Assembly: GCA_016800925.1 (NCBI GenBank)
Contig: JABCPU010000290.1
Coordinates: forward strand, 21,963 to 85,962
DNA length: 64,000 nucleotides
Source: Suillus spraguei
Taxonomy: Eukaryota; Basidiomycota; Agaricomycetes; Boletales; Suillaceae
Direction of reading: 5' to 3'
Positions 18,616 through 59,900 of the stretch are shown one piece after another. The notes under the pieces were generated by a model. It made no database searches. It was not told where the DNA came from and was given only the letters and a program-made list of their open reading frames with translations. How positions within the stretch are numbered: position 1 is the stretch's first letter; every line of letters begins with the position of its first letter. Position numbers and translations under genes: made by a program.

Positions 18616-20233
18616 CAGTGGCTCAAAAAACTGTCCGCATGTTTTGACATTTTTCACTATCTATGATATTGTGTGAGAATGAACAAATTCCTCAAGGACA
18701 TACTTATACCACATTGTAGTATGGCTTCAGGGCTTTTATTTGAGCCCTACACCGTGGGAATCGGCGGAGATATGGTGGAGATATAAGGCTTATAAAATGA
18801 TGACTCATGTGGACAGTTTTTTGAGTGTATATTAAAACTATATAAATCATTATTTATGACACCATAAGAATCATGCCACTATTATATAAATTATAAAGTG
18901 GTGTCATTATGTTATTTTATGACTATATCTAACTATATAAACCAGAATATCTCATGTATCATAGTCATGATCACCATGAAAGCCATCTCCTCTGCTCAAA
19001 GAGATAATATCCTCTCTCTGTCTTATGCTGGCCTCTCTGCTCGCCAAATTTCCTCTAGAACTGGAGTATGCAAGTCCACTGTGGCCAAGTTCATCAAAGA
19101 AAGCCACCCAGACAAGGAAAACTCTTGTGGAGGACGTCCATCCAAGCTTACCTCTACTGACAAAAGGGCTATTATCCAACATATCACTACAGGAAAGGCT
19201 GATAATGCTGTCCAAGCCACCCATTATATCAATTCCACCATCACTACCCCTGTCTCTTCACAAACTGTGAGGAATGTTCTCAAGGCAGCTCATCTCAAGG
19301 CAGTAACAAAGAAGAAAAAGCCTCTTCTCTCCATCAAACATAGGCAGAGAAGACTAGCCTTTGCCTTAGCTCATCAACACTGGACTGTAGAGGACTGGAA
19401 GCGTGTTATATGGTCAGATGAGACCAAAATCAATAGGATTGGGTCAGATGGGAAGGTGTATGTATGGAAAAAGAAGGGAGATGGCCTAACAGACAGAGAG
19501 GTTAATGGGACTGTCAAGTTTGGAGGAGGTTCTTTAATGGTATGGGGCTGTATGGGATGGAATGGTGTGGGAATGCTTGCTGAGGTTGAGGGGAAGATGA
19601 ATGCTGAGCAGTATGTGGACATTTTAAATGACCACTTGCTGCCTAGCTTGGCAGAATCAGGGATTGATGAAGAAGATATCATTTTCCAACAGGATAATGA
19701 TCCCAAGCACACATCCAGAAGAGCTAGGGAATGGTTTGAAGAACATAACATCAATGTTCTTGACTGGCCAGCACAGTCTCCTGATGTCAATGTCATTGAA
19801 CATCTCTGGGGAACACTCAAGAAAAAGCTTCAAGCCTATGAAAACCCCCCTAAAGGAGTATGGGAGCTTTGGGAGAGAGTAGCAGTGGAATGGGGGAAGA
19901 TCACAGCTGAGGATTGCCAGAAATTAATTGAGAGTATGCCTAGAAGGATAGAGGCAGTAATTAAAGCCAAGGGAGGTCATACAAAATACTAGAATACCTG
20001 GTTATTACTGTAAAATACTTGAGTCAAAAAAACTGTCCGCATGAGTCACCATTTTGTGAGCCTTGTATCTCCACCATATCTCCACCGATTCCCACGGTGT
20101 AGGGCTCAAATGAAAGCCCTGAAGCCATACTACAATGTGGTATAAGCATGCTTTTGAGGCATTTGTTTGTTCTCACACAATATTATAGATAGTGAAAAAT
20201 GCCAAAACATGCGGACAGTTTTTTGAGCCACTG
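18616..20233 (+). mobile_element. Tc1/mariner element, complete, TA target duplication
   Basis: A 1618-bp element flanked by TA (18614-18615 and 20234-20235). The ends read CAGTGGCTCAAAAAACTGTC. The inverted repeats are long, about 210 bp, and each contains a second copy of the end motif at its inner edge (near 18810 and 20020). This gives an IR/DR layout like that of some Tc1-family elements. The transposase is intact and the repeats are nearly identical, which suggests recent insertion. Confidence 0.93.
18976..19992 (+). CDS. Tc1-family transposase (DD34E), intact
   Basis: 338 aa from the ATG at 18976 (MKAISSAQRDNILSLSY); an upstream in-frame ATG at 18919 would add a poorly conserved leader. 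The N-terminal helix-turn-helix region (YAGLSARQISSRTGVCKSTV) binds the element ends. The catalytic triad is visible: Asp in VIWSDETK (codon 19417), Asp in QQDNDPKHTS (codon 19693) and Glu in VNVIEHLW (codon 19798), with 34 residues between the last two. It excises and integrates the element at TA sites in the nucleus. No stop or frameshift is seen. It lies inside LINE ORF1 in the same orientation. Confidence 0.95.
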   Translation: MKAISSAQRDNILSLSYAGLSARQISSRTGVCKSTVAKFIKESHPDKENSCGGRPSKLTSTDKRAIIQHITTGKADNAVQATHYINSTITTPVSSQTVRNVLKAAHLKAVTKKKKPLLSIKHRQRRLAFALAHQHWTVEDWKRVIWSDETKINRIGSDGKVYVWKKKGDGLTDREVNGTVKFGGGSLMVWGCMGWNGVGMLAEVEGKMNAEQYVDILNDHLLPSLAESGIDEEDIIFQQDNDPKHTSRRAREWFEEHNINVLDWPAQSPDVNVIEHLWGTLKKKLQAYENPPKGVWELWERVAVEWGKITAEDCQKLIESMPRRIEAVIKAKGGHTKY

Positions 20234-20414: not shown

Positions 20415-23400
20415 ATGCCAGAACAACCCAACGACCAATTAGCAGGGGGCGACAACTTACAAATCTGGCAACAAAATCTAAGGAAATCGCTCCCAGCCTG
20501 GGAGCACATGCTCAAGGACCTGGACCCGAATGTATATGACATCGCCTGTATACAAGAACCATATCTAAACCCAGTAAAATTAGCTAACGCCTCCAACCTA
20601 AGACAGTACTGGGATGTAATATACCCGACAGACCATCATACCAGCCCAGAAAGATCGCAAGTAATAATGCTAGTTAACACAAAACTCTCGAAGAACGACT
20701 GGCACACCGTCACGATCAAATCATCGAACGTAATGGCAATCGAACTGACGGGCAACTTCGGGAAGGTACGCATGTACAACATATATAATGCCTGTGATCA
20801 CAATAACACACTAATATTTCTCGAACGGCACATGGCCACGGAGCGCAACACAAGGCAGGCGCAGCGCACCGCTAAAGGCGAACAAGGCGCAAACCAGAGT
20901 ACATAATGTGGATGGGCGATTTCAACCGCCATCACCCTTTGTGGGAACCACAGCATAACACACACTTATTTACAGCAGCAAATCTAAACGCTGCAGCAGT
21001 ACTAATAAACATATTGTCTATGTATAACCTTGTACAGATACTCCCACCGGGTCTAACTACCCTAGAAGCCTCTAATACAAGAAACCTAACACACCCGGAT
21101 AATACATTCTGCTCCATGCAAATGGAGCAATGGATCAGCAAATGCAGCGTCGAACAACACCTCCGCCCAGTTGTCACAGACCACTTCCCAATCATAACGG
21201 TCATAGACATAGAACCAGAACGCGTGACGCACGCCCCCAAGCACAACTATCACGCAACGGATTGAGAAGAGTTCAGAGAGTACCTAGCCAGCAAGCTAAG
21301 CAATATCCCACCACCAAATGAACTAACTACCCACGTACAGTTCCAGGAAGCATTGACAGCGCTGACGAGGTGCATTTTGGAAACAGTAGAAGCCAAGGTC
21401 CCTAAATCCAACCCCTCCCCATACGCGAAGCGCTGGTGGTCAAAAGAACTAGAGGCAGAGCGAAAAGGGGTAAGGAAACTAGCTAGAGACTCAAGAAAAC
21501 ACCTAGCAAGACGGAACGACCCGGTACACGAGGAATACAGAGTGGCGCGAAACAAACTCGTGGAGAACATCAAACGAGCAAAGACAGACCACTGGAACGA
21601 ATGGATGGAATCGCTAACACCAAAGGGGATCTGGACCTTTCATAAGTACGCAGCTAGTACACCAACTGACCAAATCCACACCAGAATAAAAACGTTACAA
21701 GACCAACAGGCTGACGGCCAAAATGGTGTAACACAGGATAACGCTCGAAAAAGCGAACTGTTATATAACGTCTTTTTCAGATCACTGGTGGAAAACGACT
21801 CAGTAGACCCAGACTTCAACTATGACCCCCCAATATGCGATTTCGAGCCCATAATGGACCAGCAAATCTACCGCGCAATAGCCAAACTAGCTCCTCATAA
21901 AGCCCCAGGCTGAACGGAATTCGCAACATAGTCTTTACCAAGTGCGCGGATCTAATAGTACCTCACATGGCACCAATCTTCCGAGCTACATTCACACTGA
22001 AAATCTACCCGAACGAATGGAAGTGCTCATCAACGATAGTGTTAAGAAAACCCAGAAGGCCAGACTACAGTGTGCCAAAAGCGTATAGACCAATAACGCT
22101 CCTGGATACCATGGCTAAGCTTCTATCCTCCTGCGTAGCAGACAATCTCACGTACATTGCAGAACAACACGGCCTATTTCAGCAACGCACTTCGGTGGAC
22201 GGCCAGGCAGATCGACGGTAGACTCACTCCACATGTTAACGAAATTCATAACAGACACTTGGGCATCGAAAGACGATCACGTCTCACTACTATTCCTCGA
22301 TGTAAAAGTGGCATTCCCAAGCGTAGTTACGAACAGACTCCTGCACATTCTGAAAAGAAAAGGGATACCAACGCAGTACGTCGAATGGTACAGAAGAAGA
22401 CTCGAAAATAGAACCACCCATCTCTTCTTTGAGGACTACCAATCGAAACTCTTCAAGGTCCCAGACGGACTCGATCAAGGATGTCCATTGTCCCCAATAG
22501 CGTTCATTTTCTACAACTCAGATGTACTGGAAGTCGCTAACCCCAACCCACGCAAAGGAGAACTGAGCCTGGGCTTCCTCGATGATGTCGCGTTAGCAGC
22601 CAGAGCGAAATCATATGAGGAATCGAATGAAAAGCTCAGACACATGATGGAGAAAAGGGGAGGAGCGTTAGAATGGAGTGAACGGCACCACGCTGAGTTC
22701 GAACTTGAGAAAACAGCACTAATATGTCTATCAAGGAAGCGCATACCGGATGAACAGAACCCACGCAAGACCACACCAGAACGCCGCCCAGCTATCACCA
22801 TCCGCAATTGCACCATTCAACCATCGAAATCACACAAGTTCCTGGGCATGATTGTAGACGAGAACCTCAACTTCAACGAACACGCGGCCTACGCACTTGC
22901 AAAAGGAACAAAGTACGCACTAGCATGTATGAGGGTGATCCGACTGACAAAAGGAATGCATGGAAGGGCGATGAAACGGCTGTACGAAGGAGTCATACTG
23001 CCAAAAATGCTCTACGCAGCGGATGTCTGGTGCTCAGGCCTCGTTGCAAAAAGGAGAGGGAAACAGAGAGGGGGCAGGGGACCGAAAGGCTTCGCCACAC
23101 AGATGTCGAGAGTTCAGCGCATGGCCACGACCCTAATAACAGGAGGACTAAGATCAACTTCCAATGATATGTTAGACGCGCACGCTAACGTCTTACCGTT
23201 TCAACAGACACTCCGCATGGCAACACTCCCAGACACTCACCCACTAGCAAAGGACATCAGGTCAGCATACATGTTCGGCGCAAAAAGGGAATTCAAGGGG
23301 AGAAAACGACACCCGTCTCCACTGCACAAACTGACGTACGAGTACCAGATAGACCCCGACACCACAGAGAAGATTAGGCTGGTCAGACACTATCCAAAGT

Positions 23401-24452
23401 GGACCCCAGACACCAAAACGCACATCGCAGACAAACCAGAGAGAGCAGCGGATGAAGACCTATCAGCGGAAGAAGACATAAGAGCATACTCAGACGGATC
23501 TTCGATCGAAGGAGGAGTGGGGGCAGCAGCAGTGATCATGCGAGGCGAACAAGTGATTAAGAGTCGGAGATTCTACCTGGGCAAGGACACGGAGCACATG
23601 GTGTATGAAGGAGAGCTTGTGGGAATGATTCTGGCAGTTCAGCTTCTAAAAGAAGAGGGAGGAGAAAGGGGGGGTACCATGTCACTGGGGGTAGACAATC
23701 AGGCAGCCATCCGCGCAACATCAGCATTCCGTTCACAACCAGGACACTACCTGATGGACATGTTCCACGACGACCTATGCAGGGTCATCCCAGCCAACGA
23801 TGGAAGGAAACTCATCATCAGGTGGACGCCAGGGCATAAGGGCATCCCGGGCAATGAAGCAGCGGACGAGCAGGCGAAAGAGGCAGCGAGAGGGAAATCA
23901 TCGGGAACGAACGAACTCCCGAAATCCTTGCTAACAAAACACGGTGAAACCAAGGAACTGCCACGTAGTAAGTCAGCGATCAAACAGACATACCACCGCA
24001 GAATAAAGGACGAGGCGACGGAAATAGCAAACAACTCACCAAGGTTCACCGCCCTGTGCACCATAGACCAGTCAGCTCCTTCCAACAAATTCGCTGCAAA
24101 AACTGCATCGTTACCAAGGAAGCACAGCTCGCTCCTCTTTCAGCTCAGAACGGGTCATATAGCGCTCAACAAACACCTACACCGGATATCGAAGAGCCAA
24201 TCAGCCAAGTGCAAAAACTGCAACGCGCACGAGGAAACAGTACATCATTTCCTACTAGTATGCCCCACCTTCACCAGACAGAGAGACGCCGTGCGTCTCG
24301 AAGTAGGCCCGCGCAAATACAATATCAAGCACTTGCTCAATGATACTCAAGGAATGAGAGCAACCCTGAAATACATCGCACGTACAAGACGCTTCGAGCA
24401 GACTTTCAGAGATGTTACCCCCCCCAAGGAAAAAGAGGAAAGGAGAGAATAA
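20415..24452 (+). pseudogene. LINE ORF2 (endonuclease-reverse transcriptase-RNase H), several frameshifts and stops
   Basis: The endonuclease part reads NLQIWQQNLRKS, CIQEPYLNP, then WMGDFNRHHPLWE and VTDHFPII. The reverse transcriptase contains QGCPLSP and the catalytic GFLDDVAL. The RNase H domain has AYSDGSS, VYEGELVG and WTPGHKGIPGNEAAD. A C-terminal CKNCNAHEETVHHFLLVC motif follows. The frame breaks near 20900 (about one base), at 21263 (TGA where Trp is expected), near 21910, and again between 22100 and 22233. From 22233 to 24452 it is open for 739 codons. The element can no longer move by itself. Confidence 0.88.
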
Positions 24453-25162: not shown

Positions 25163-25550
25163 ATATTCTAATCAGAATATTTCAGCCTACGGAAAGTCAT
25201 CCTGTAGCAAATGTTTCTCCAACTCACTCCTGTAGCTGCATTTAGTGCCTCTTTCCAAATTGGAAGGAGCAGGCTCAGCACTCCACTTCGGGTCACTTTG
25301 CTGATGTGTTCCGTGTGCACTCTCCCTCATTCCAAGTCATGCCATACAAGTGGGGCTCATGGCGTCGTGGCTACACATTGGTGCTACAGCAGGTCTGACT
25401 CATCTAGCCAGAATTAGTCCATCAAGATCGCTTCCATACTGCTGTAAAGAGATTTGAAAGAATCCCTCACTCTTTGTATCTCATGACGCTGGCGGAGTTC
25501 AAATATTTGAATCCAATCATCGCTTGTGAGCATCAAGCATTATGGTGCAG

Positions 25551-26320
25551 TGTCATATACCATACTTCTAATCTCAGATCCGACCATATCCGATCAGATC
25601 TGATCGATTCCATATCCGTCTGGTCCACAGATCCTGCCCGGACCACCCATCCAAATGTGCTCACTTCTCGCACCTTAACTCCCTTGTGTATATCTGCGTC
25701 TATCTCCTTTCGTCATTCCTCCTGTTTCCGGTATTCCGGCTGTTTATATTTCCGTCCTGTGTTACTGATCCATTTCCTGTGTTCATTTCCGATTCATGCT
25801 TACTGATCTGCTGTGCATTAACTAATAGACTTCCGTTACACTTCGTACATAGCCCTCGGTCCCGGACTTGCTGATTATCCATCTTAGATACTTACAGTAT
25901 ATAAACCACTTGTAGATCTCCGTAGAACCTTAGTTCGAATATCATCTTAGATTCTACTCATTCTGTTCCCTCCGGACTTAAGCCACTTTCCGCTTTAAGT
26001 CACCTTCCGAGACTTAGGATTGATTCCTATAGTCTATATCTCCAACTCTATCTTCGGATAGTCTACCTCCGTTAGTTTCTAGTTAGGAACTCGTTCCGAG
26101 ACTAGCCTTAATCTCTGTCCTCTCCTTATGTTCCGAATAACCTTCGGACATACCATATCCGATACCTTCGGGCACCCGGATCCGTCACGCAACTCCTTCT
26201 GGGTCTTCGGACGAATAACTCCTCCCTGAAATAAAGGGGCATTACTCGAGAAAGGGGCACAGTGCACGAACTGAGGCCAAAGCCCTTCGTATCTCTCTAC
26301 CCTTGAGTACAGTCTTAACA
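25551..26320 (+). mobile_element. Solo LTR of the chromovirus family
   Basis: A 770-bp sequence TGTCATATACC...AGTCTTAACA, nearly colinear with the LTRs at 54800 and 61960, flanked by the 5-bp duplication TGCAG (25546-25550 and 26321-26325). No internal element sequence remains, as expected after recombination between two LTRs. It differs from the other two LTRs at more sites than they differ from each other, so it is the older insertion. Confidence 0.93.
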
Positions 26321-28891: not shown

Positions 28892-29770
28892 CACAAATGT
28901 CACGAAAAGTCATGTGATCTAGATGTATTTGCATGAGGTCTATCTTATGTAGATATATAAATTTTAAATAAGAGAAATACAGTTGAATCCACAGTGCAGA
29001 ATCCGATCCATAATCGCATTCTCGAGGCGCTTCGACGATTAAGCTCATAATCCGATTCTCACGTCCAAAATTGTTTTTTGAATCGTATTCTAAATCGCTC
29101 CATAATCGTTTACTCTGACTACCACTATTAATGACTATGGAAATGACATCAAAGTCAAAACTCAGAAGGGTTTGGAATGGTTCGGGAAGGCCGAACCAGA
29201 ACCGAACCGTTTGGGATGGCCTAGAACCGAGAACCAAGGACCGGACCGCGGACTAGTCAGACAACTGGTGCGGATCCTGTTGCTCTCAAACGCATGGCTG
29301 CTGTGATGCCACAAGGGATCTCAAATTCATCAATGACACTGGCATGTCGCAATATGAGGTGTCTTGCTCGCAATCTGAGGTGCCTTGCTCGCAATATGTC
29401 TACCAGTAGCACTCTGGCAAGGTGCGGAGATTAAAATAACCATCGGTTCTTCCATTAATATTGTAGGTTGGTGAAATGAAATTGCACTTAATGGCTCGCA
29501 AAGAATTATAACAGCATATTTGGATTTTTATGCACGTTTAGCTCCGGTTAAGACGTGAGAGCTCCTCACACTACCACTGGCTAAAGTCAGCCAACTGTGA
29601 ATGTATTATGATGATGAAGCTTTCGCAGCGGACTCATTTGTATCAGTCACCAGACACCTGCCACGCAATTCATCCGAGTCAGATATTGTGTGTTGTATCG
29701 TGGCGGCACCCATCTTGAAATTTTTGACCACTGCTGGCTGTTGTCTGCTGACCATGATCTGCGCATATAT

Positions 29771-29822
29771 CCAATTATTGTTTGTAGAAGAGGCGAAGAT
29801 CGGACCTGCGAGAATGTATAAA
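29771..29822 (+). promoter_or_regulatory. CCAAT and TATA elements of the repeat-peptide gene
   Basis: CCAAT lies at 29771-29775 and TATAAA at 29817-29822, 61 bp before the ATG. The spacing is suitable for a strongly transcribed RNA polymerase II gene. Confidence 0.5.
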
Positions 29823-29882
29823 GGTCTTCTCGGTTTTTCAGTAGAGTGCATTGACGAATAGTCACTCCTCTTATCCATAAAC

Positions 29883-31520
29883 ATGCAGATTTCTTTGCTC
29901 TTGAGCGCACTTGTATCTCTTGTCATTCTTGGTGCAGCGTCACCCATGCCAGGAGCCATCTTGGAACATTCTTGTGAGTATTCATGATCATCAGTAGTAT
30001 TATATTCACTCAGATGGACTGCAATGCACCACTCAGACAAGCGAGAGGAGCTTTCTCCAGAATACTTGAAGTATGGTTCAACCGGAGGTGAGATATAATA
30101 TATCCATCATTTATATTCATTTACCAATCGTAAATTTTACACCAGGCGAGAAGCGAAAGGAGCTTTCCCCAGAATACTTGAAGTATGGTTCAACTGGAGG
30201 TGAGATATAATATATCCATCACTTATATTCATTTACCAATCGTACATTTTACACCAGGCGAGAAGCGAAAGGAACTTTCCCCAGAATACTTGAAGTATGG
30301 TTCAACTGGAGGTGAGATATAATATATCCATCATTTATATTCATTTACCAATCGTACATTTTACACCAGGTGAGAAGCGAGAGGAGCTTTCCCCAGAATA
30401 CTTGAAGTATGGTTCAACTGGAGGTGAGATATAATATATCCATCATTTATATTCATTTACCAATCGTAAATTTTACACCAGGCGAGAAGCGAAAGGAACT
30501 TTCCCCAGAATACTTGAAGTATGGTTCAACTGGAGGTGAGATATAATATATCCATCATTTATATTCATTTACCAATCGTACATTTTACACCAGGTGAGAA
30601 GCGAAAGGAGCTTTCTCCAGAATACTTGAAGTATGGTTCAACCGGAGGTGAGATATAATATATCAATCATTCATATTCAATGGCCAATCGTACATTTTAC
30701 ACCAGGCGAGAAACGAGAGGAGCTTTCTCCAGAATACTTGAAGTATGGTTCAACTGGAGGTGAGATATAATATATTCATCATTTATATTCATTTACCAAT
30801 CGTACATTTTACACCAGGCGAGAAGCGAAAGGAACTTTCCCCAGAATACTTGAAGTATGGTTCAACTGGAGGTGAGATATAATATATCCATCATTTATAT
30901 TCATTTACCAATCGGACATTTTACACCAGGCGAGAAGCGAAAGGAGCTTTCTCCAGAATACTTGAAGTATGGTTCAACTGGAGGTGAGATAATATATCCA
31001 TCATTTCTATTCATTTACTAATCGTACATTTTACACCAGACGAGAAGCGAAAGGAGCTTGCTCCAGAATACTTGAAGTATGGTTCAACTGGAGGTGAGAT
31101 AAAATATATCCGTCATTTATATTCATTTACCAATCGAACATCTTACACCAGGCGAGAAGCGAAAGGAGCTTTCTCCAGAATACTTGAAGTATGGTTCAAC
31201 TGGAGGTGAGATATAATATATCCATCATTTATATTATATTCATTTACCAATCGCACATTTTACACCAGACGAGAAGCGAAAGGAGCTTGCCCCAGAATAC
31301 TTGAAGTATGGTTCAACTGGAGGTGAGATATAATATATCCATCATTTATATTCATTTACCAATCGTACATTTTACACCAGACGGGAAGCGAGAGGAGCTT
31401 TCTCCAGACTACTTGAAGTATGGTTCAACTGGAGGTAAGATATAATATATCCATCATTTATATTCATTTACCAATGTACATACGTATCCTGCTCCAGAGA
31501 AGCGCAAGGACCTGGAGTGA
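29883..31520 (+). CDS. Secreted precursor with 13 Kex2-bounded peptide repeats, one repeat per exon
   Basis: Exon 1 (29883-29973) encodes a signal peptide (MQISLLLSALVSLVILGAAS) and a short pro-region. Exon 2 (30037-30087) and twelve 54-nt exons (starting 30146, 30258, 30370, 30482, 30594, 30706, 30818, 30930, 31040, 31152, 31269, 31381) each encode KR(K/E)EL(S/A)P(E/D)YLKYGSTG. Exon 15 (31498-31520) ends KRKDLE and stop. All exons join in phase 1, 813 nt in total, 270 aa. Lys-Arg before every unit is a Kex2 cleavage site, so the Golgi protease would release about 13 near-identical peptides with two tyrosines each. Most exon differences are synonymous. This matches the layout of fungal Kex2-processed repetitive proteins and dikaritin-type RiPP precursors, but no tailoring enzyme (UstY/DUF3328) is in the window. 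Function unknown. Confidence 0.88.
30037..31497 (+). repeat. Tandem array of 112-bp exon-plus-intron units
   Basis: Each unit is a 54-nt exon followed by an intron of about 58 nt (gtgagatataatatatccatc...ttttacaccag). Thirteen exon copies are present. The introns are as alike as the exons, which shows that whole units were copied by unequal exchange or conversion. Confidence 0.95.
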
Positions 31521-31948
31521 GGTCACATTTAGTGATCTCACCGACACCTACTAGGACAGCAAACAAGCTGTGTAGCATAAACATCGGTGTTTTTCGTAGC
31601 AATGTGTCTCACTTCCCCGTATCGTGTCAGGTCCATAGTTATGTCAAATCAATAGGGGAGAAATGTATTCAGTTGATCTGGTCTCCTACTTGATGATAAA
31701 CAGTCATTCGTTCTTTCTTACGGAGTTGATCATATCAGACGCTCAACAGAGAATAAAACACGTGGAGGAAAAGCTAGTAGGTGCGGGCAGGACTGTTTCC
31801 CGGTATTAAGATTCGAAGGTCAAGGAGAGATGCCCTCTTATGTAGTAGAGAGACCGACAAATCGCATCCTAGATCATACAACATGTATTGGTACCAAAAT
31901 GATCATTTAACACCCATAAATCCACTTAGGCAGCTGCAAAATATTTCT
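31521..31948. other. Non-coding spacer in left arm
   Basis: Shared with the right arm (about 45019-45403). I see no conserved frame in it. Confidence 0.4.
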
Positions 31949-31959
31949 CTAACACGCTC

Positions 31960-32345
31960 TTCGACACGACATGGGGCATTGTCCTCGTTTCAAATTGTAC
32001 GTAACCCCGCTCTGCGGAAGAAGTACGTCTCCCGGGCTAGTGCTGTCAGTAGTTGTTGTCACACTCGCTGGAACGGTGGGTACGATGACAGATGATGCAG
32101 TCCACTCAGCATCAAGTGTCTCGATCAGCTTTACGGGGGGATTGGGGAAGGCTTCGACGAGCGCCTGCGCCTTGCTTGCAGTCCGATTGAACAAGTAGAT
32201 GCGCTGGGCCCTCAAGGACTGAAGCACAAATATGGCGGCAGCAGGCGCACCGATGGATGGCGCACGAGAGCAGGTGGGTTCACGAATGCCGAACTACTCG
32301 GTATTGTCTCCGAGGACATGGTTTCCTCTGTTCGGGCCAATCACA
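31960..32345 (-). pseudogene. AROM shikimate-dehydrogenase fragment (left arm)
   Basis: The minus strand reads a degraded GDNTE, then RIYLFNRTASKAQALVEAFP, LIETLDAEWTASSVIVPTVPASVTT and a proline-poor end. This corresponds to part of the shikimate 5-dehydrogenase domain at the C-terminus of the fungal pentafunctional AROM protein. The remaining AROM domains are absent, the ends are abrupt and an in-frame stop lies upstream, so this is a captured gene fragment. Confidence 0.65.
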
Positions 32346-32725
32346 GGAGAGTAGTCATAACGGCTCTAGTCCAACGAGTCCAATAAGCTCTGCAGAAGGC
32401 ATTATCTGAAGTATAACACTCGCCTTTTAACTGTTGTGGAAAAAACTAGCGGATTGTTGGTCGAGTCTGAGTCCGACTCGAACAGCCCTTGATAGAGATG
32501 TACGAGCTGGACTCAAGTTGACATGCATTACAGCAAAATATGTCTTTCAGTTGCAGTGACAAAAATAAAAGTGCCAAACACAAATCACTCGTCCAAGATA
32601 TTCTCCGGAAGTATTCAGGAGTAGCCAATGATACGTTTGTCAACGCCACATCGGTTACAGTTCTTCAAACCCATCTGTAAGCAACATTCAATGCGAGAGA
32701 ATGACAGCACATACATGTAACCTGA

Positions 32726-34072
32726 TTACTTAACGCGTTGACCGTCGATGCAACGCCGCTGCCTGCCTGAACTCCTGTAATGGTAATGTTCCATAATTTT
32801 CATGTCTAACTTTTCCCACTTTCCCAAGCGATTCATGCTCTTGACATCGTGTCGATGATTGTCGCGTCAAACGAACCTACCTGCGAAGATTTAGGCCGGA
32901 TAATGATAGAGCAATCCTTGAACGTCGCTGAAAGAAGGTATGCTATTAAATAATGCCGGAGGTGTTCAGGGTTCAGGACTGTGTGGTCCCAGGAATGATA
33001 ATCAGACTGGTAAACTTTGACGAAGTCTTCCCATTCCTCCACGGCAGGATCAGGAACTGAAGACCCAATACCGTCATATGGGCAATCTGGTGATGTCTGT
33101 GTGTACAACTTGGATAAGCCCTCTATATCAAGGATATCCAGTGTTCGTTGTAAAGTCGAAAGAAGGGGAAGGACGGGACTGTCAAGAAGTGGCTGCGAAA
33201 GAACGGATATGAACGATTCCCGGAGGTCCTGGACGTCAGTCAATTCGTTCGCAGTGAAGAAGAGTGCCAGCAATTGCATCGAGTGGTCCTATGCAAACCT
33301 ATCAGGAATATGTGAGCGTGATATACTGAAGACGTACATCATCTGGGTTTGCCATTCTGCCCTCGACGAAGAATCGCAAGTCATTGAGAGACCCATGCTC
33401 TCATACCACCCGGCCCACAAAGCACCTAGGCCCTTCTAACACCGTCTGATTGCGGGAAAAAAAAGGTCCAACGGATAATATGTCGTACCGAAACCCCCTT
33501 GTTCCATTTTGAAGCTGGTGTGCATACAAAATCTGCATGTTGCTGTCTTCAGAGCAGCAGTCGCAGGCGAGAGATGACATTCTGTAGGTAAAAATCCCCA
33601 TGTCGGCTAAACAACCAATCAGATACAGATATTCTGCCAATAAACTGGCGACAACCTGGATTTCAATCGCGATGGACGTGCCTCCAATGAGATCCGTGGC
33701 TAACACACCCTTACTCCTGCAAACATCAATCTGATCCTTCTCTCTGCTGGGCGATCGCCGTTGCGTAGGACAACAAACGACCTAAGCCAATCTTCGTCGA
33801 GCACCACCACCGCAAGACTCGGCAAGAACTCAGAGGGAACAAGTTTTGAGATGATGTTTTCCTGGAAGGCGATCATAGGATAATCTAACTGTTCAGTATT
33901 TTTTTCGAGTAGCATGTTGTCTGACGACCCGTGAGCGACTTTACGGAGACGTAGACATGATCAGAGAATTTGACATTGTGAGGTCCTTGATACCAGAATA
34001 CGATAGTCGCCGCTCCCTCAGAGACGTGTATCCAATCCTGAGGTTTTGTTTCAGTAATCAACGAATATTGAT
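32726..34072 (-). pseudogene. IPK1: Inositol-pentakisphosphate 2-kinase-like pseudogene (left arm)
   Basis: Recognisable IPK1 blocks in order are KGVLATDLIGGTSIAIEI, PTWGFLP, CRFCMHTSFK, YCPLDLFS (after an intron) and LIAYLLSATFKDCSIIIR. The family makes phytate (InsP6) from InsP5. Lesions: homology to the other copy stops just inside the start, so no ATG. One base is lost in the VLRLRK-coding stretch (near 33950), seven bases are lost after the ERR codons (near 33740), and one more is lost near 32850. Several of these positions are intact in the right-arm copy. Confidence 0.8.
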
Positions 34073-42926: not shown

Positions 42927-44197
42927 AATGACTCCAGCGTTGATTACTGAAACAAAACCTCGGGATTGGATACACGTCTCTGAGGGAACGGCGACTATCG
43001 TATTCTCGTATCAAGGGCCTCACAATGTCAAATTCTCTGATCATGTCCTACGTCTCCGTAAAGTCGCTCACGGGTCGTCACACAACATGCTACTCGAAAC
43101 AAATACTAAACAGTGAGATTATCATATGATTGCCTTAGGTCGTTTGTTCTCCTACGCAACGGCGATCGCCCAGCAGAGAGAAGGCGGGCGGATCAGATTG
43201 ATGTTCGCAGGAGTAAGGGTGTTTTAGCCACGGATCTCATTGGAGGCACGTCCATCGCGATGGAAATCAAGGTTGTCGCCAGTTTATTGGCAGAATATCT
43301 GTGTCTGATTGGTTGTTTAACCGAAACGGGGATTTTTACCTACAGAATGTCATCTCTCGCCTGTGACTGTCGCTCTGAAGACAGCAACATGCAGATTTCG
43401 TATGCACACCAGCTTCAAAATGGAACAAGGGGGTTTCGGTACGACATATTGTCCGTTGGACCTTTTTTCCCGCAATCAGACGGGTGTTAGAAGGGCCCTA
43501 GGTGCTTTGCGGGCCGGGTGGTATGAGAGCCATGGGTCTCTCAATAACTTGCGATTCTTCGTCGAGGGCAGAATGACAAAACCAGATGATGTACGTCTTC
43601 AGTATATCACGCTCACATATTCCTGATAGGTTTGCATAGGACCACTCGATGCAATTGCTGGCACTCTTCTTCACTGCGAACGAATTGACTGACGTCCAGG
43701 ACCTCCGGGAATCGTTCATATCCGTTCTTTCGCAGCCACTTCTTGACAGTCCCGTCCTTCCCCTTCTTTCGACTTTACAACGAACACTGGATATCCTTGA
43801 TATAGAGGGCTTATCCAAGTTGTACACACAGACATCACCAGATTGCCCATATGACGGTATTGGGTCTTCAGTTCCTGATCCTGCCGTGGAGGAATGGGAA
43901 GACTTCGTTAAAGTTTACCAGTCTGATTATCATTCCTGGGACCACACAGTCCTGAACCCTGGACACCTCCGGCTTTATGTAATAGCATACCTTCTTTCAG
44001 CGACGTTCAAGGATTGCTCTATCATTATCCGGCCTAAATCTTCGCAGGTAGGTTCGTTTGACGCGACAATCATCGACACGGATGTCAAGAGCATGAATCG
44101 CTTGGGAAAGTGGGAAAAGTTAGACATGAAAATTATGGAACATTACAGGAGTTCAGGCAGGCAGCGGCGTTGCATCGACGGTCAACGCGTTAAGTAA
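42927..44197 (+). pseudogene. IPK1: Inositol-pentakisphosphate 2-kinase-like pseudogene (right arm)
   Basis: Starts at ATG 42927 and shows WIHVSEGTATIVFSYQGP, VLRLRKVAHGSS, RPAERR, KGVLATDLIGGTSIAMEIK, CHLSP, CRFCMHTSFK, YCPLDLFS, AYLLSATFKDCSIIIR and DVKSMNRLGKWEKLD, ending at TAA 44195. These are the family's motifs from end to end. Lesions: TGA at 43114 where the left copy has TTA, loss of about 90 bp between the LLETNTKQ and LRSF codons, and the acceptor before WGFLP changed from tag to aac with Trp to Arg beside it. It retains bases that the left copy has lost. Confidence 0.82.
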
Positions 44198-44599
44198 TCA
44201 GGTTACATGTATGTGCTGTCATTTTCTCGCATTGAATGTTGCTTACAGATGGGTTTGAAGAACTGTAACCGATGTGGCGTTGACAAGACGTATCATTGGC
44301 TACTCCTGAATACTTCCGGAGAATATCTTGGACGAGTGATTTGTGTTTGGCACTTTTATTTTTTGTCACTGCAACTGAAAGACATATTTTGCTGTAATGC
44401 ATGTCAACTTGAGTCCAGCTCGTACATCTCTATCAAGGGCTGTTCGAGTCGGACTCAGACTCGACCAACAATCCGCTAGCTTTTTCCACAAAAGTTAAAA
44501 GGCGAGTGTTATACTTCAGATAATGCCTTCTGCAGAGCTTATTGGACTCGTTGGACTAGAGCCGTTATGACTACTCTCCTGTGATTGGCCCGAACAGAG

Positions 44600-45018
44600 G
44601 AAACCATGTCCTCGGAGACAATACCGAGTAGTTCGGCATTCGTGAACCCACCTGCTCTCGTGCGCCATCCATCGGTGCGCCTGCTGCCGCCATCTTTGGG
44701 CTTCAGTCCTTGAGGGCCCAGCGCATCTACTTGTTCAATCGGACTGCAAGCAAGGCGCAGGCGCTCGTCAAAGCCTTCCCCAATCCCCCCGTAAAGCTGA
44801 TCGAGACACTTGATGCTGAGTGGACTGCATCATCTGTCATCGTACCCACCGTTCCAGCGAGTGTGACAACAACTACTGACAGCACTAGCCCGAGAGACGT
44901 ACTTCTTCCGCAGAGCGGGGTTACGTACAATTTGAAACGAGGACAATGCCCCATGTCGTGTCGAAGAGCGTGTTGGAGTGATATTTTGCAGCTGCCTAGG
45001 TGGATTTATGGATGTTAA
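44600..45018 (+). pseudogene. AROM shikimate-dehydrogenase fragment (right arm)
   Basis: Counterpart of 31960-32345, with RIYLFNRTASKAQALVKAFP and SSVIVPTVPASVTT. It differs by a few bases and is likewise truncated at both ends. Confidence 0.65.
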
Positions 45019-45403
45019 ATGATCATTTTGGTATCAATACATGTTGTATGATCTAGGATGCGATTTGTCGGTCTCTCTACTACATAAGAGGGCATCTCTC
45101 CTTGACCTTCGAATCTTAATCCCGGGAACAGTCCTGCCCGCACCTACTAGCTTTTCCTTCACGTGTTTTATTCTCTGTTGAGCGTCTGATATGATCAACT
45201 CCGTAAGAAAGAACAAATGGCTGTTTATCATCAAGTAGGAGACCAGATCAACTGAATACATTTCTCCCCTATTTATTTGACATAACTATGGACCTGACAC
45301 GATACGGGGAAGTGAGACAAATTGCTACGAAAAACACCGATGTTTATGCTACACAGCTTGTTTGCTGTCCTAGTAGGTGTCGGTGAGATCACTAAATGTG
45401 ACC

Positions 45404-46994
45404 TCACTCCTTGCGCTTCTCTGGAGCAGGATACGTATGTACGATTTGTAAATGAATATAAATGATGGATAAATTATATTTTACCTCCAGTTGAAGCATA
45501 CTTCAAGTATGGAATAAGCTCCTCTCGCTTCCCGTCTGGTTTAAAATGTACGATTGGTAAATGAATATAAATGATGGATATATTATATCTCACCTCCAGT
45601 TGAACCATACTTCAAGTATTCTGGAGAAAGCTCCTTTCGCTTCTCGCCTGGTGTAAAATGTACGATTGGTAAATGAATATAATATAAATGATGGATATAT
45701 TATATCTCACCTCCAGTTGAATCATACTTCAAGTATGGAATAAGCTCCTCTCGCTTCCCGTCTGGTTTAAAATGTACGATTGGTAAATGAATATAAATGA
45801 TGGATTATTATATCTCGCCTCCGTTGAACCATACTTCAAGTATGGAATAAGCTCTCTCGCTTCCCGTCTGGTTTAAAATGTACGATTGGTAAATGAATAT
45901 AAATGATGGATATATTATATCTCACCTCCAGTTGAACCATACTTCAAGTTTCTGGAGAAAGCTCCTTTCGCTTCTCGCCTGGTGTAAATGTCGATTGGTA
46001 AATGAATATAAATGATGGATATATTATATCTCACCTCCAGTTGAACCATACTTCAAGTATTCTGGAAAAGTCCTCTCGCTTCCGTCTGGTGTAAAATGTA
46101 CGATTGGTAAATGAATATAAATGATGAATATATTATATCTCACCTCCAGTTGAACCATACTTCAAGTATGGAAAAGCTCCTCTCGTTTCCGCTGGTTAAA
46201 ATGTACGATTGGTATGAATATAATGATTGGATATATTATATCTCACCTCCGGTTGAACCATACTTCAAGTATTCTGGAAAAGCTCCTTCGCTTCTCCCTG
46301 GTTAAAATGTACGATTGGTAAATGAATATAAATGATGGATATATATCTCACCTCCAGTTGAACCATACTTCAAGTATTCTGGGGAAAGCTCCTTTCGCTT
46401 CTCGCCTGGTGTAAAATTTACGATTGGTAAATGAATATAAATGATGGATATATTATATCTCACCTCCAGTTGAACCATACTTCAAGTATGGAAAGCTCCT
46501 CTCGCTTCCGTCTGGTTAAAATGTACGATTGGTAAATGAATATAAATGATGGATATATTATATCTCACCTCCAGTTGAACCATACTTCAAGTATTCTGGG
46601 AAAGTTCTTTCGCTTCTCGCCTGGTGTAAAATGTACGATTGGTAAATGAATATAAATGATGGAATATTATATCTCACCTCCAGTTGAACCATACTTCAAG
46701 TATTCTGGGGAAAGCTCCTTTCGCTTCTCGCCTGGTGTAAAATTTACGATTGGTAAATGAATATAAATGATGGATATATTATATCTCACCTCCGGTTGAA
46801 CCATACTTCAAGTATTCTGGAGAAAGCTCCTCTCGCTTGTCTGAGTGGTGCATTGCAGTCCATCTGAGTGAATATGATACTACTGATGATCATGAATACT
46901 CACAAGAATGTTCCAAGATGGCTCCTGGCATGGGTGACGCTGCACCAAGAATGACAAGAGATACAAGTGCGCTCAAGAGCAAAGAAATCTGCAT
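45404..46994 (-). pseudogene. Decayed inverted copy of the repeat-peptide precursor
   Basis: The ATG at 46994, the signal-peptide exon and intron 1 are intact and identical in sense to the left copy. Thirteen repeat exons are still countable (for example at 46803, 46690, 46365, 45605). Many have lost 1-6 bases: several read EELIPYLKYG or similar (a net in-frame loss), and others shift frame (near 45840, 45950, 46075, 46190, 46280). The last exon has lost six bases but still ends KRKE. Differences from the left copy are almost all deletions. Either true decay or consensus errors in a repeat could produce this. Confidence 0.8.
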
Positions 46995-47299
46995 GTTTAC
47001 GGATAAGAGGAGTGACTATTCGTCAATGCACTCTACTGAAAAACCGAGAAGACCTTTATACATTCTCGCAGGTCCGATCTTCGCCTCTTCTACAAACAAT
47101 AATTGGATATATGCGCAGATCATGGTCAGCAGACAACAGCCAGCAGTGGTCAAAAATTTCAAGGTGGGTGCCGCCACGATACAACACACAATATCTGACT
47201 CGGATGAATTGCGTGGCAGGTGTCTGGTGACTGATACAAATGAGTCCGCTGCGAAAGCTTCATCATCATAATACATTCACAGTTGGCTGACTTTAGCCA

Positions 47300-47863
47300 G
47301 TGGTAGTGTGAGGAGCTCTCACGTCTTAACCGGAGCTAAACGTGCATAAAAATCCAAATATGCTGTTATAATTCTCTGCGAGCCATTAAGTGCAATTTCA
47401 TTTCACCAACCTACAATATTAATGGAAGAACCGATGGTTATTTTAATCTCCGCACCTTGCCAGAGTGCTACTGGTAGACATATTGCGAGCAAGACACCTC
47501 AGATTGCGACATGCCAGTGTCATTGATGAATTTGAGATTCCTTTGTGGCATCACAGCAGCCATGCGTTTGAGAGCAACAGGATCCGCACCAGTTGTCTGA
47601 CTAGTCCGCGGTCCGGTCCTTGGTTCTCGGTTCTAGGCCATCCCAAACGGTTCGGTTCTGGTTCGGCCTTCCCGAACCATTCCAAACCCTTGTGAGTTCT
47701 GACTTCGATGTAATTTCATAGTCATTATAGTGGTAGTCAGAGTGAACGATTATGGAGCGATTCAGAATACGATTCAAAAAAACAATTTTGGACGTGAGAA
47801 TCGGATTATGAGCTTAATCGTCGAAGCGCCTCGAGAATGCGATTATGAATCGGATTCTGCACT
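47300..47863. other. Upstream part of right arm
   Basis: Counterpart of 28990-29580. No gene. It contains the short imperfect inverted run around 47830-47857. Confidence 0.4.
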
Positions 47864-54799: not shown

Positions 54800-55567
54800 T
54801 GTCATATACCATACTTCTAATCTCAGATCCGATCATATCCGTCCAGATCCGATCGTTTCCATATCCGTCCGGTCCACAGATCCTGTCCGGACCACCCTCC
54901 CGAATGTACTCACTTCTCGCACCTTAACTCCCTGGTGAACATCTGCGTCTATCTCCTTTCGTCATTCCTCCTACTACCGGTACTCCGGCTGTTTATATTT
55001 CCGTCCTGTGTTACTGATCCGTTTCCTGTGTTCATTTCCGATTCATGCTTACTGATCCGCTGTGCAATAACTAATAGACTTCCGTTACACTTCGTACATA
55101 GCCCTCGGTCCCGGACTTGCTAATTATCCGTCTTAGAAACTTACTGTATATAAACCACTTGTAGATCTCAGTAGAACCTTAGTTCGAATATCATCTTAGA
55201 TTCTACTCATTCTGCCTCCTCCGGACTTAAGCCACTCTCCGCTTTAAGTCACCTTCCGAGACTTAGGATTGACTCCTATAGTCTATACCTCCGACTCTAT
55301 CTTCGGATAGTCCATCTCCGTTAGTTTCTAGTTAGGAACTCGTTCCGAAACTAGCCTTAATCCTGTCCTCTCCTTACGTTCCGAATTACCTTCGGACGTG
55401 TTATATCCGACACCTTCGGACACCCGGATCCGTCGCGCAACCCCTTCCGGGTCTTCGGACGAATAACTCCTCCCTGAAATAAGGGGCATTACTCGAGAAA
55501 GGGGCACAGTGTACGAACTGAGGCCAAAGCCCTTCGGATCTCTCTACCCTTGAGTACAGTCTTAACA
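54800..55567 (+). repeat. 5' LTR of the chromovirus
   Basis: 768 bp. It differs from the 3' LTR by a few single bases and a 2-bp indel near 55363 (taatcctg against taaatccctg). Confidence 0.95.
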
Positions 55568-55617: not shown

Positions 55618-56904
55618 ATGCCTCCCCGTAAAGCTCAAAACACACTCCGAGGAGCCGGACTTGGTCCGATCCAACGAGACCCACACCCATGTCCAAACAT
55701 TTACCAGTTTCTCTCAACGCCGCGCAAGCATGAGCGACATAGGTCAGAGTATCTCCGCCCGTCAAGTCAGACCGGATCCGATAACACCAACTCGGAACCC
55801 GGATAACCCAGACCCCAATTCGCACCCGACCATTCGCTTTGATGATGAGCTGGCAGTAATCTACCAGATGATGAAGTTGATGATCCGGACAACGAGGACC
55901 TGGATGACGAAGAAGATAAAATCCACCTAAACCCTCAGGACCGGGTCCTAGCCCAACTATCCGTAGCCATTAACCACCTGCTCGCAGTAGCCGTCGCACC
56001 CCCACCTCGGATGATAGCAAAGTCAAAGTCCGTGAGCCAGATACCTTCGATGGGTCCGAACCTCGCAAGCTCCGGGCATTCTTCGTCCAATGTGAGCTCA
56101 ACTTCCAGAGCAAACCTAGCGCTTTCCGTTCCGGACGCGCTAAAGTAAATTTCGCCCAATCCTACCTTAAGGGTATGGCTCTCGAGTGGTTTGAGCCGGA
56201 CCTCCTTTCGGACGGATATAGCAACCGTCCGGATTGGATGGATGACTACTCCGAGTTCATGCTGAGCTCCAAACCAATTTCGGACCACACATCCCTCCGG
56301 AGACGCAGAGATGCAGTTAGAACAACTCCACATGCGTGACGGACAACGCATCAACAAGTACGTTGTAGAATTCCAGCGACTTGCCTCCCAAGTACGCGAA
56401 TGGGGAGACGGAGCCCTACGACGCCAATTCTACAATGGACTTCCGGCCCGAATCAAAGATGAGATTAGTCGCATGGGTAAGCCCACTACCCTTTCGGAGT
56501 TCAAGACTCTCGCCCAGACCATCGATGCCCGTTACTGGGAACGGAGGGGCGAAGTCACCCGAGAGAGTAGAACCACCTCTTCCAATCCTCCCAGGCAGTC
56601 AACATCCGACCGGACGAACTCCAACACATCCGGATCCGATACGCCCAAATTCAATAAACCCACATACTCCACAGCATCCTCTACCCCGAAAGTTTCGGAT
56701 CTTCCTAGTGTTGTTGGTACAGACGGAAAGCTAACCACCCAGGAGCGTCAGAGACGTTTTGACAAAAAGCTCTGTATGTTCTGCGGCGGACCTGGTCACA
56801 CTGCCCGGGAATGCACCAAATCCACTTCGCGCGCTGCCAAAGGCCGCGCCGCTGTGCTCACTCCGGAAACGGAACCGGAAGCCTCGGATGAGGCAAAAAA
56901 TTAG
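55618..56904 (+). pseudogene. Chromovirus gag, frameshifted
   Basis: ATG 55618 (MPPRKAQNT) opens a frame that is lost after about 40 codons and continues in other frames. The frames include VREPDTFDGSEPRKL, AFFVQCELNFQSKP and LKGMALEWFEPDL (the capsid signature). A final frame from 56311 includes EFQRLASQVREWGDG, FYNGLPARIKDEI and the zinc knuckle CMFCGGPGHTAREC. Gag forms the particle and binds element RNA. At least three shifts before 56311 would prevent a full-length product. Confidence 0.8.
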
Positions 56905-56960
56905 TCCGCGACCCTCCTGACTCCGTACGGGATGAGGGTCGCGTTGGCCCAACCCGTGCA

Positions 56961-59900
56961 ATGGAACTACGACTCAATGCTGTAACTCTTCCTGATCCGA
57001 ACTCTCTGTGTCCATATGTCTCTCTTCCATCTTTCTCCAATATATCTGACTTTCCGGCCCTCATAGACTGTGGTTCCTCCCACTGCTTCATAGACACTGA
57101 TTTCGTCCGAGAACATAAAATTCCTACCTATCAGATTCCTCCGCTTCCACTCCGTTTATTTGATGGTACATGCAATAACAATATTGTCGAAGCCATAAAC
57201 TTATCCGTCCGATTCTCCTCCGGTGTAATCACTTCCGACACGTTCTACGTCACCCCTTTGGATTCCTCATGTTATATCGTTCTCGGATATAGCTGGCTCA
57301 CCCGACACAATCCGTTGATTGACTGGGTATTGGGCAGCATCGAGTTCCGAACTACTGAACAAGGAGTGCCATTAACCCCATCCGCATCATCGCTGCCTCC
57401 GGACACACCGACCATGGCAGGAAAATCCAATCCGACACCTCTGTTACCTTCGGGTATTCCACCCAAGGAAAATTCCTCCCCTCCAAAATCTCCGTCGCAT
57501 CAGAGCATCCCATCTGTGGCGGAGGCTCCGCCTCTGACCAAATCCGAACCCTCCGCTGGTACCCCAGTCCCTAACATATCGTTGATAAACGCAGTGGCCT
57601 TTTGCCGTGCCTGCAAGTTAGAAGGATCCACTCAGTTCAGCATCTACCTCCGTCCCTCCGAAGTAAACCTTCGATCCGCATCCGTATCATCCGATCCTCC
57701 AGACCTCTCCAGAATCCCTTCCGACTACCACGAATTTGCGGATGTCTTCGACAAAGGCAAAGCCGGACAACTTCCCCCACATCGACCCTACGACCTCAAG
57801 ATTGAGTTGGAAGAAGGGGCTAGTCCGCCTCTCGGAACCATATACTCTCTTTCTCCGGTAGAGCTTGAGGCCCTTCGGAAGTTCCTTGACGAAAACATCT
57901 CGTCCGGACTTCTCCGCTCCTCATCTTCTCCCCACGGAGCCCCCGTCCTATTTGTCAAAAAGAAGGATGGATCCCTCCGCCTTTGTGTGGATTTCCGCGG
58001 CCTTAACCACATCACCAAGAAAGACCGATATCCGTTACCCCTCATTGCCGACCTTCTTGACTCCCCGAGCCGCGCTAAGGTATATACCAAAATTGATCTC
58101 CGATCTGCATATCACCTCGTCCGGATAACAGAAGGAGACGAGTGGAAGACTTCCTTCCGTACGCGCTATGGCTCCTATGAATGGTTGGTGATGCCGGAAG
58201 GCCTCACGAATGCTCCGGCAGCTTTCCAGCGCTTTGTCAATAGCGTGTTTGCCGATATGCTGGACGTATGTGTTGTTGTATATCTGGATGACATCCTTAT
58301 CTATTCCCAAGACCTTGCAAGTCATAAGGAACATGTCCGAGAAGTTTTACGACGTCTCCGTAAACACCGACTATATGCCAAACCCGAGAAATGCGAATTC
58401 CACTCCTCCTCCGTCGAGTATCTTGGTTACCTCCTATCTCCGGATGGCTTGACGATGTCGTCCGAGAAAATCCAGTCCATCATAGACTGGCCAGAGCCTC
58501 GGAAAGTCAAGGACATCCAATCTTTCCTCGGATTCGCTAATTTCTATCGTCGCTTCATCTTCAACTACTCGGATATCGTGGTTCCCCTTACTCGACTCAC
58601 TCGCAAGGGCGTCACTTGGGACTTTTCCGAGGAATGCCGGAAGTCATTTAACGCACTCAAGAAAGCCTTCACGTCCGCTCCGGTGCTTACGCATTGGATT
58701 CCGAATGTTCCTATAGTTGTGGAAACTGATGCCTCGGATTATGCTATCGCTGGAATACTATCCATTGTGTGCCCAGACTCGGAACTTCGTCCGGTGGCTT
58801 TTTACTCCCGGACACTGTCCGGTGCAGAACTCAACTATGACGTCCATGATAAGGAACTACTAGCCATCTATGCTGCGTTCCGAACCTGGCGCCATTACCT
58901 AGAAGGCTCGTCCGAGCCTATAGATGTTGTCACGGACCACAAGAACCTTGAGTATTTCTCTACCACCAAACTGCTATCCCGTCGTCAGGCCCGCTGGTCC
59001 GAGTTCCTTCATCAGTTCAACCTCGTTATCCGTTACCGTCCTGGAAGACTCGGAGTCAAGCCAGATTCCCTCACTAGACGATGGGACGTCTACCCTAAAG
59101 AGGGGGATAAGGACTACGCTCAGATTAACCCTCACAACCTCCGCCCAATATTTGCTTCGGAACAATTAGCTTCGTCCCTACGAGCTTCCATTTTAGCAAC
59201 TCCGGTCCTAAGAGCAGCTGTTCTTATGGACACCGAACACCTCCGGAAAGACATTCTGATAGCACTCCCTAATGACCCCATTGCACAAACACATTTTCCG
59301 GTTCCCTCAGATCCGAGATGGGCAATAGACGATGGTGGATTCCTTTGTTGTGACAACCGCATCTACGTTCCGGATACCAATGATCTACGACTTCGCATCC
59401 TCCGGAATTGCCATGACCACCCCCTATCCGGACATTTCGGACAGAATCGCACTCTCGAGCTCATCCGACGCAACTATACCTGGCCCGGAGTACGGGCCTT
59501 TGTCAAAGAGTATGTCAGATCCTGCACATCCTGCGCCCGAGCCAAAGTTCCGAGACATAAGCCCTACGGTTTACTCAAGCAACTTCCCGTCCCAGAAAAA
59601 CCATGGAATTCCATCTCTATGGATTTCATTGAACAACTTCCGGACTCATCCGGCTTTACAGCCATCCTCGTCATCATAGATCGTTTATCCAAGCAAGCCA
59701 TATTCGTCCCGACCCACGACACCATCACTTCTCCTGATCTCGCCCGCCTATTTCTCCTCCATGTCTTCTCTAAGCATGGAGTCCCGTCCCATGTAACCTC
59801 GGATCGAGGAACAGAGTTCGTATCCCACTTCTTCCGTTCCCTAGGAAAGGCATTGGACATGGTCCTACACTTCACATCCGGATATCATCCCGAAGGGGAC

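Follow-up and report, generated by a model that had tools for sequence, protein, structure and literature searches.

A gene with one putative Kex2-bounded peptide per exon in Suillus spraguei, and its relatives

The genome of the bolete Suillus spraguei carries a gene of 15 exons in which 13 short and nearly identical peptide repeats, each preceded by Lys-Arg, are encoded on one exon apiece. The explanation that we consider best, with a probability of about 0.6, is that of a Kex2-processed repeat gene whose array grew by duplication of an exon together with its intron and whose tyrosines would, less certainly, be modified in trans by a UstYa enzyme. Relatives that share its leader occur elsewhere in the same genome and in other Suillus species, and many of those in this genome lie close to UstYa genes.

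Structure and surroundings of the gene

The window, that is the whole stretch of 64,000 nucleotides that was analysed, contains the gene (copy A) at 29883-31520. As the earlier note had claimed, it consists of a leader exon, 13 repeat exons that span 30037-31434 and a closing exon; the spliced frame is open and gives a product of 270 aa. The features are as follows.

29817..29822 (+): TATA-like box TATAAA, read in the sequence 66 bases 5' of the ATG
29883..29973 (+): exon 1, leader MQISLLLSALVSLVILGAASPMPGAILEHS, 91 nt, ends in phase 1; signal peptide by eye
30037..30087 (+): repeat exon 1, YKREELSPEYLKYGSTG, 51 nt
30146-30199, 30258-30311, 30370-30423, 30482-30535 (+): repeat exons 2-5, 54 nt each
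30594-30647, 30706-30759, 30818-30871, 30930-30983 (+): repeat exons 6-9, 54 nt each
31040-31093, 31152-31205, 31269-31322, 31381-31434 (+): repeat exons 10-13, 54 nt each
31498..31520 (+): closing exon, EKRKDLE and stop, 23 nt

The hydrophobic stretch of the leader, MQISLLLSALVSLVILGAASPMPGA, looks secretory when judged by eye, and a TATAAA-like box also stands upstream of most family leaders inspected (the paralogs by eye). A length of 54 nt had been claimed for the repeat exons; this is true of twelve of them, while the first has 51 nt. The 14 introns measure 56-63 nt (in order 63, eight times 58, then 56, 58, 63, 58 and 63). All 14 run from GT to AG, which leaves 28/28 splice dinucleotides intact, and all interrupt the frame in phase 1, again as claimed. 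Since each exon was duplicated with its intron, the common phase is mostly one event counted repeatedly. The motif proposed for the repeats, KR(K/E)EL(S/A)P(E/D)YLKYGSTG, was recovered in 13/13. Lys-Arg stands before each of the 13 and once more in the closing exon, and every core has two tyrosines three residues apart (YLKY). At the DNA level the array is a nearly perfect 112-bp tandem repeat with a TRF score of 2519; when an array intron is translated, readthrough meets a stop at codon four. A protein search with the 270-aa precursor gave no match at E <= 10 among the 7,999 candidates scored, so copy A appears to be un-annotated.

According to this model, the transcript would be spliced to a single 270-aa precursor, kexin would cut after each Lys-Arg, and carboxypeptidase trimming would take off the basic residues. 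The released peptides would have about 16 residues and be mostly KELSPEYLKYGSTGGE, for which the computed monoisotopic M is 1756.852; that of EELSPEYLKYGSTGGE is 1757.800, and forms lighter by 2.016 Da were also considered. The genome has a kexin P-domain gene on C925 and a second copy of it on C1201.

Copy A lies in a segment of 4.8 kb that is duplicated in inverted orientation within the window. The duplication holds both copies of the gene, the second of which the earlier note leaves unmentioned, fragments of ARO1 and a fragment like inositol-pentakisphosphate 2-kinase:

28993..33792 (+): 4.8-kb segment with copy A, 96 % identical to, and inverted relative to, 43128-47863
31929..32326 (-): degraded ARO1 fragment (shikimate dehydrogenase end), convergent to copy A; twin at 44599-44996 (+)
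32836-33288 (-): fragment like inositol-pentakisphosphate 2-kinase (Pfam match), whose protein start recurs at 43640-44194 (+)
45404..46994 (-): copy B with its leader and some 13 units; small deletions break the frame of the array

When 12 units of copy B were set against the best unit of copy A or of the paralog C382, 32 bases were deleted, 6 inserted and 9 mismatched; in the control comparison, of 12 copy A units with C382, the figures were 2, 5 and 38. Over 3,055 bases of flank, copy B and C382 differ by 34 mismatches and 9 gaps. Small deletions thus abound in the array of copy B while mismatches are few, unlike in its flanks; this pattern looks like residual consensus error, although decay is possible. 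Copy B was accordingly set aside as evidence on function, either way. Its deletion pattern is a caution when such arrays are read in this assembly.

C382 is collinear, in pieces, with window 32239-54554 at 97-99 % identity, and looks like the other haplotype, allelic to copy B. The genome has a single SDH_C match, at the end of an ARO1-like frame of 738 aa (C536:47937-50150) that adjoins a family gene at 51k, and degraded ARO1 ends are found beside the copies in the window, C382, C481, C924 and C536:31k. From these positions we infer that the window-type segment may have spread from the neighbourhood of ARO1, carrying an ARO1 fragment along.

The surroundings are rich in transposons. A DDE transposase frame with Tc-type domains lies at 18868-19989 and a LINE-like reverse transcriptase frame at 22119-24449. 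Direct repeats of 770 bp that are 99.5 % identical (54800-55567 and 61960-62729) flank a Ty3-type element with reverse transcriptase and integrase (56892-60692), and a single 93 % copy of the repeat stands at 25550-26320; the identity of the flanking repeats makes the Ty3-type element probably a recent insertion.

A family of leader-sharing genes

DNA and protein searches, merged by hand, gave about 41 loci on 19 contigs that share the leader, a number that includes alleles and weak matches and leaves out C481 and C536:175k. A tree built on promoter plus leader for 24/41 loci has two sides, split at 100/100. On one side are 13 genes with the repeats packed into one exon behind a phase-1 intron (10/13 usably modelled; C536:108k, C536:130k and C536:185k by eye). 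The other side has 11 rows with a leader, one or more core exons and a closing exon. Arrays with one repeat per exon fall into two groups of the tree, the window type (A, B, C382, C924a and C924b) and C318 with C36 and C967. The tree therefore calls for two changes, whether both are gains or one is a gain and the other a loss; since exon lengths and cores differ between the groups, two separate expansions are favoured. Leader-less or truncated relatives are found on C536 and C481.

Gene models for C382, C924a, C924b and C318 were made by hand, and the counts of exons, introns and tyrosines given here leave out C36, whose model has a wrong or doubtful tail, and C269 and C536b. In the six modelled genes every internal exon is a multiple of 3, while the intron lengths (51, 52, 56, 58, 59, 63 and 64) as a rule are not. 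Their 50 introns start with GT in 47 cases and GC in 3, and all end with AG. The NCBI protein P0021 of S. spraguei equals, letter for letter, the five-exon, one-repeat-per-exon model of C924b; a separate annotation pipeline has predicted the splicing of a window-type gene at exactly these joints. A further S. spraguei protein, P0004, is identical to the model of C536:127k.

The array of C382 has 10 repeat exons, of which four are 51-nt variants (GKREELIPYLKY), and the gene is intact save for three GC donors and an altered last donor. These GC donors could weaken their exons, whose skipping would preserve the frame. In C924a and C924b the closing exon continues further, with KRKDLESGHIYSDLTD(V/T)Y, and that of copy A is shorter. 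A second array gene, C318 (from 129138, minus strand), likewise gives each repeat its own exon. Twelve of its 13 repeat exons have 78 nt and one has 75 nt; the units are of the type AIKERDELETNLVGYVDYGGGSGTSR, the basic site is weaker (KER) and the donors read GTTAG or GTCAG. Its closing exon, placed by eye, contains a third core, EELDAGQNDYAVAA, three times.

How such arrays arose is suggested by C320, which has only a leader, a single core exon and a closing exon. Its second intron agrees with the array introns of copy A in 44/62 columns (0/2,000 shuffles as good) and with those of C318 in 39/57 (1/2,000); the agreement between copy A and C318 array introns is weaker (40/59 columns, 6/2,000). 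The simplest history would be that the array grew from a three-exon, C320-like gene whose symmetrical exon was duplicated in tandem together with its intron. Such an expansion probably occurred twice in the family, and the sister clade would have multiplied its repeats inside one exon. At C536:51k (about 50.7-51.2 kb, minus strand, by eye) two more copies follow a core exon, set apart by spacers of 15 nt that leave no room for introns; perhaps an exon duplication is seen here that is just beginning or that failed.

The search for relatives among database proteins, of the kind that the earlier note had suggested, found 52 proteins, Suillus throughout apart from four. Alignment A1, from three relatives in the S. 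spraguei genome, yielded 20 proteins, all Suillus; alignment A2, from three window-clade precursors, yielded 32, of which 28 are Suillus and 4 come from a source labelled ‘lgn’. Together they cover 20 Suillus species by count of names. As many as 16/52 share the core (I/V)IY(A/S)WYDG, so the C320-like peptide is widely kept. P0048 of Suillus decipiens has the same kinds of unit as C318, and S. lakei proteins have repeated units like DKKREELETDFIDYKVGSIG. In one of the latter, P0030, two units are separated by what seems to be an intron read as protein, a lead that introns may stand between repeats there too. The four ‘lgn’ proteins join leader to core without an intron and would be transcripts if their source assembles RNA reads.

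Divergence of the cores, UstYa linkage and competing explanations

The twelve 54-nt exons of copy A vary in 10 columns, 5 synonymous and 5 non-synonymous, so the earlier description of the differences as mainly synonymous was half right. Across the array piN is 0.035, piS 0.127 (piN/piS 0.28) and intron diversity 0.049 per site; in C318 the corresponding values are 0.018, 0.086 and 0.078. Selection on the peptide, as had been proposed, finds modest support within the array, whose copies are not independent, and between paralogs the picture is reversed, with cores far outpacing introns. An argument for selection from the copy A array alone is weakened, as the copies are recent duplicates and intron diversity (0.049) is close to that at non-synonymous sites (0.035).

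For the paralogs, ten matched unit pairs were taken from A, C382, C924a and C924b, one of them within C924a. Introns of matched pairs are 95-98 % identical; the averages over all between-gene unit pairs are lower (0.88-0.92) because the last introns, which diverge, are counted in. Among A, C924a and C924b, exon 1 has 92-95 % identity. The cores of copy A and C924a have an average identity of 0.81, and those of C924b are only 0.38-0.44 identical to the other window-type genes in single pairs (0.40-0.42 on average). With introns and exon 1 near-constant and cores diverged, it follows that a 34-nt core would have been replaced or rewritten by a 43-nt core. What is kept between window-type genes is the KREEL start and the tyrosines.

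A pair of conserved tyrosines per core, as noted earlier for this gene, is indeed frequent in the family: 46/59 distinct cores from 16 genes, related cores among them not being independent, have two or more (exactly two in 43), compared with an average of 29.3 and a maximum of 38 in 5,000 residue shuffles. Neighbouring tyrosines are three residues apart in 29 pairs. If the cores are also split after ER, 53/65 have two or more. Tyrosine is lacking in 11/59, mostly the di-histidine cores of C291 (140-145 kb), where relatives have many cores of the type DELDDDHHKKHPKR, almost no tyrosine and a UstYa match 8-12 kb off. Among the database proteins the pair is weaker (71/132 distinct cores).

UstYa (DUF3328, PF11807) gave 45 exon matches in the genome, which manual merging reduced to 26 genes spread over 13 contigs, and six contigs carry UstYa and leader loci together. 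Relatives on C536, C291 and C969 have UstYa in the same cluster, with weaker matches on C569, C635 and C707. Within 2, 5, 10 and 20 kb of a UstYa gene lie 6, 9, 13 and 17 of the 41 leader loci, where 0.05, 0.10, 0.18 and 0.32 are expected if loci are independent; in fact they are related (7/13 on C536, some alleles), and 3/13 rest on weak leader matches (C569:184k, C635:8.7k and C969:31k). The excess is large despite this non-independence. The UstYa genes of C536 flanking 33-35 kb carry HQMHC and HQLHC, HxxHC being a hallmark of UstYa, and enzymes of this kind are known to cross-link such peptides. A leader-less remnant of the window type (C536 31172-31493) is 597 bp from a UstYa exon match. 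None of the 45 matches is on the window’s own contig, which has only 85,962 bases, and no UstYa gene was found within 20 kb of the intact window-type genes A, C382, C924a and C924b. The proposed UstY link consequently applies to the family, with 13/41 leader loci within 10 kb, but not to this contig, and any UstYa modification at copy A would have to act in trans. A tyrosinase was rejected as partner enzyme, its one weak match in the genome being on a contig without a leader locus.

The explanation that we prefer, with oxidative modification of the tyrosines in trans to give a dikaritin-like RiPP as its less certain part, draws on the open model, the identity of P0021, the exon lengths, the UstYa linkage, the tyrosine-rich cores, the C320 intron and the kexin gene. 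Modification of the copy A peptide is suggested because same-leader relatives adjoin UstYa and cores keep a tyrosine pair, often three residues apart. Counted against it were the contig without UstYa, the lack of UstYa within 20 kb of intact window-type genes, the weak tyrosinase match, the 71/132 database cores, the C291 cores without the pair, the three weak linked loci and the un-annotated state of copy A. It is possible, if unlikely, that the same gene and Kex2 processing yield linear, unmodified peptides for signalling or defence and that UstYa serves other members only. The absence of UstYa from the contig fits this, as do the linear, minimally modified KEP peptides reported from agaricomycetes (PMC9769878) and the DUF3328 neighbours at 22 % of the KEP genes in the survey of PMC7329392; the UstYa linkage across the family, the retained tyrosine pairs and the remnant next to the UstYa match on C536 argue against it. 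A more far-reaching proposal, which we hold to be rather doubtful, is of a UstYa-linked, genus-wide system in one branch of which the core is an exon cassette, a phase-1 exon that is gained, lost or swapped together with its intron; the arrangement would have arisen twice in one genome, and splicing would pick the peptides, for example through the GC donors of C382. If it were true, peptide dose and sequence could change while leader, cut sites and introns stayed as they are.

That copy A is instead a silent relic in a duplicated, transposon-rich segment, its array expanded by unequal crossing-over and its frame open merely through recent duplication, appears quite unlikely. The segment was duplicated along with degraded ARO1 fragments, transposon genes lie within the window, copy B has frame-breaking deletions, the closing exon is short relative to C924a and C924b, and C536 and C481 carry relatives that are truncated or lack the leader. 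Nevertheless, all 13 repeat exons are open and in frame with every splice dinucleotide intact, piN/piS in the array is 0.28, and C382, the apparent allele of copy B, is intact save for its GC donors and changed last donor. Least credible by far is a product of chance or assembly, i.e., a 112-bp tandem repeat without coding meaning. The near-perfection of that repeat and the hint from copy B that arrays are badly assembled here would suit it, yet P0021 matches the same exon pattern exactly in C924b, exon lengths are multiples of three and relatives exist in other Suillus species; taken over the whole family, these findings tell strongly against it.

Comparison with known systems

By its structure, with the leader judged by eye, copy A may be classed as a KEP, and its secretory-looking leader, 13 repeats and Lys-Arg before each support the earlier claim of a KEP-type precursor. 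The KEPs described in PMC6339444, PMC7329392 and PMC9769878 have a secretory leader, which that of copy A resembles by eye, and, like copy A, near-identical short repeats with Lys-Arg between them; Table 2 of PMC7329392 gives lineage-specific expansions in Basidiomycota, and di-histidine types with DUF3328 neighbours are noted there as well. Copy A is unlike them in having one repeat per symmetrical exon, and the words intron and exon are absent from the main texts of PMC6339444 and PMC7329392. Judged by its sequence, copy A would also work like a dikaritin precursor (ustiloxin, phomopsin or asperipin-2a type): these are KEP-like with tyrosine in the core, and relatives of copy A adjoin UstYa. 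It differs in its contig without UstYa, the single weak tyrosinase match in the genome and larger cores of about 16 aa; lacking a UstYa gene on the contig and a known product, it is not filed as a dikaritin.

For Suillus bovinus, S. brevipes and S. luteus, an antiSMASH comparison lists no fungal-RiPP cluster at all (PMC10971629, Table 5). Relatives of the copy A family were found by protein search in S. bovinus and S. brevipes, so the family points to peptides that mining can miss, the RiPP status of these relatives being putative. Since Suillus bovinus forms ectomycorrhiza with pines (PMC10971629), the family peptides are candidates for root signalling or defence.

Two systems of Rhizophagus offer partial likenesses. 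In the AGL proteins of PMC8786786 introns are conserved more than mature coding sequence (63.2-71.4 % against 41.5-60.8 % identity), as here, but species rather than paralogs are compared, and these GPI-anchored proteins have one intron per gene and no Kex2 repeat cassette. The SP7-like effectors of PMC11333574, which are secreted too, form a family of tandem-repeat proteins in which a conserved intron precedes the first repeat; they differ in that only this conserved intron is named, in their nuclear localisation signal and in altering plant splicing.

With repeats amplified both inside one exon and exon by exon, and with core exons that changed beside nearly constant introns, this one genome constitutes a natural experiment, in which it becomes testable whether symmetrical exons speed the evolution of secreted peptides or permit dosing by splicing. 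No precursor of fungal peptides in which every repeat has its own exon was met in the literature searched (titles and abstract openings, with subscription papers mostly outside). In the animals, PMC3731216 describes tandem-repeated peptide-encoding exons in the magainin and caerulein genes of Xenopus laevis; the gene-building is similar, since in copy A and its paralogs each peptide has its own exon in tandem (P0021 agrees for C924b), although these are unrelated skin peptides and no homology is claimed. The layout that the earlier note had called unusual is so for fungi within the searches made: the exon-per-core build appears to be new for fungal peptide precursors in that literature and has, in the account of PMC3731216, a clear animal parallel.
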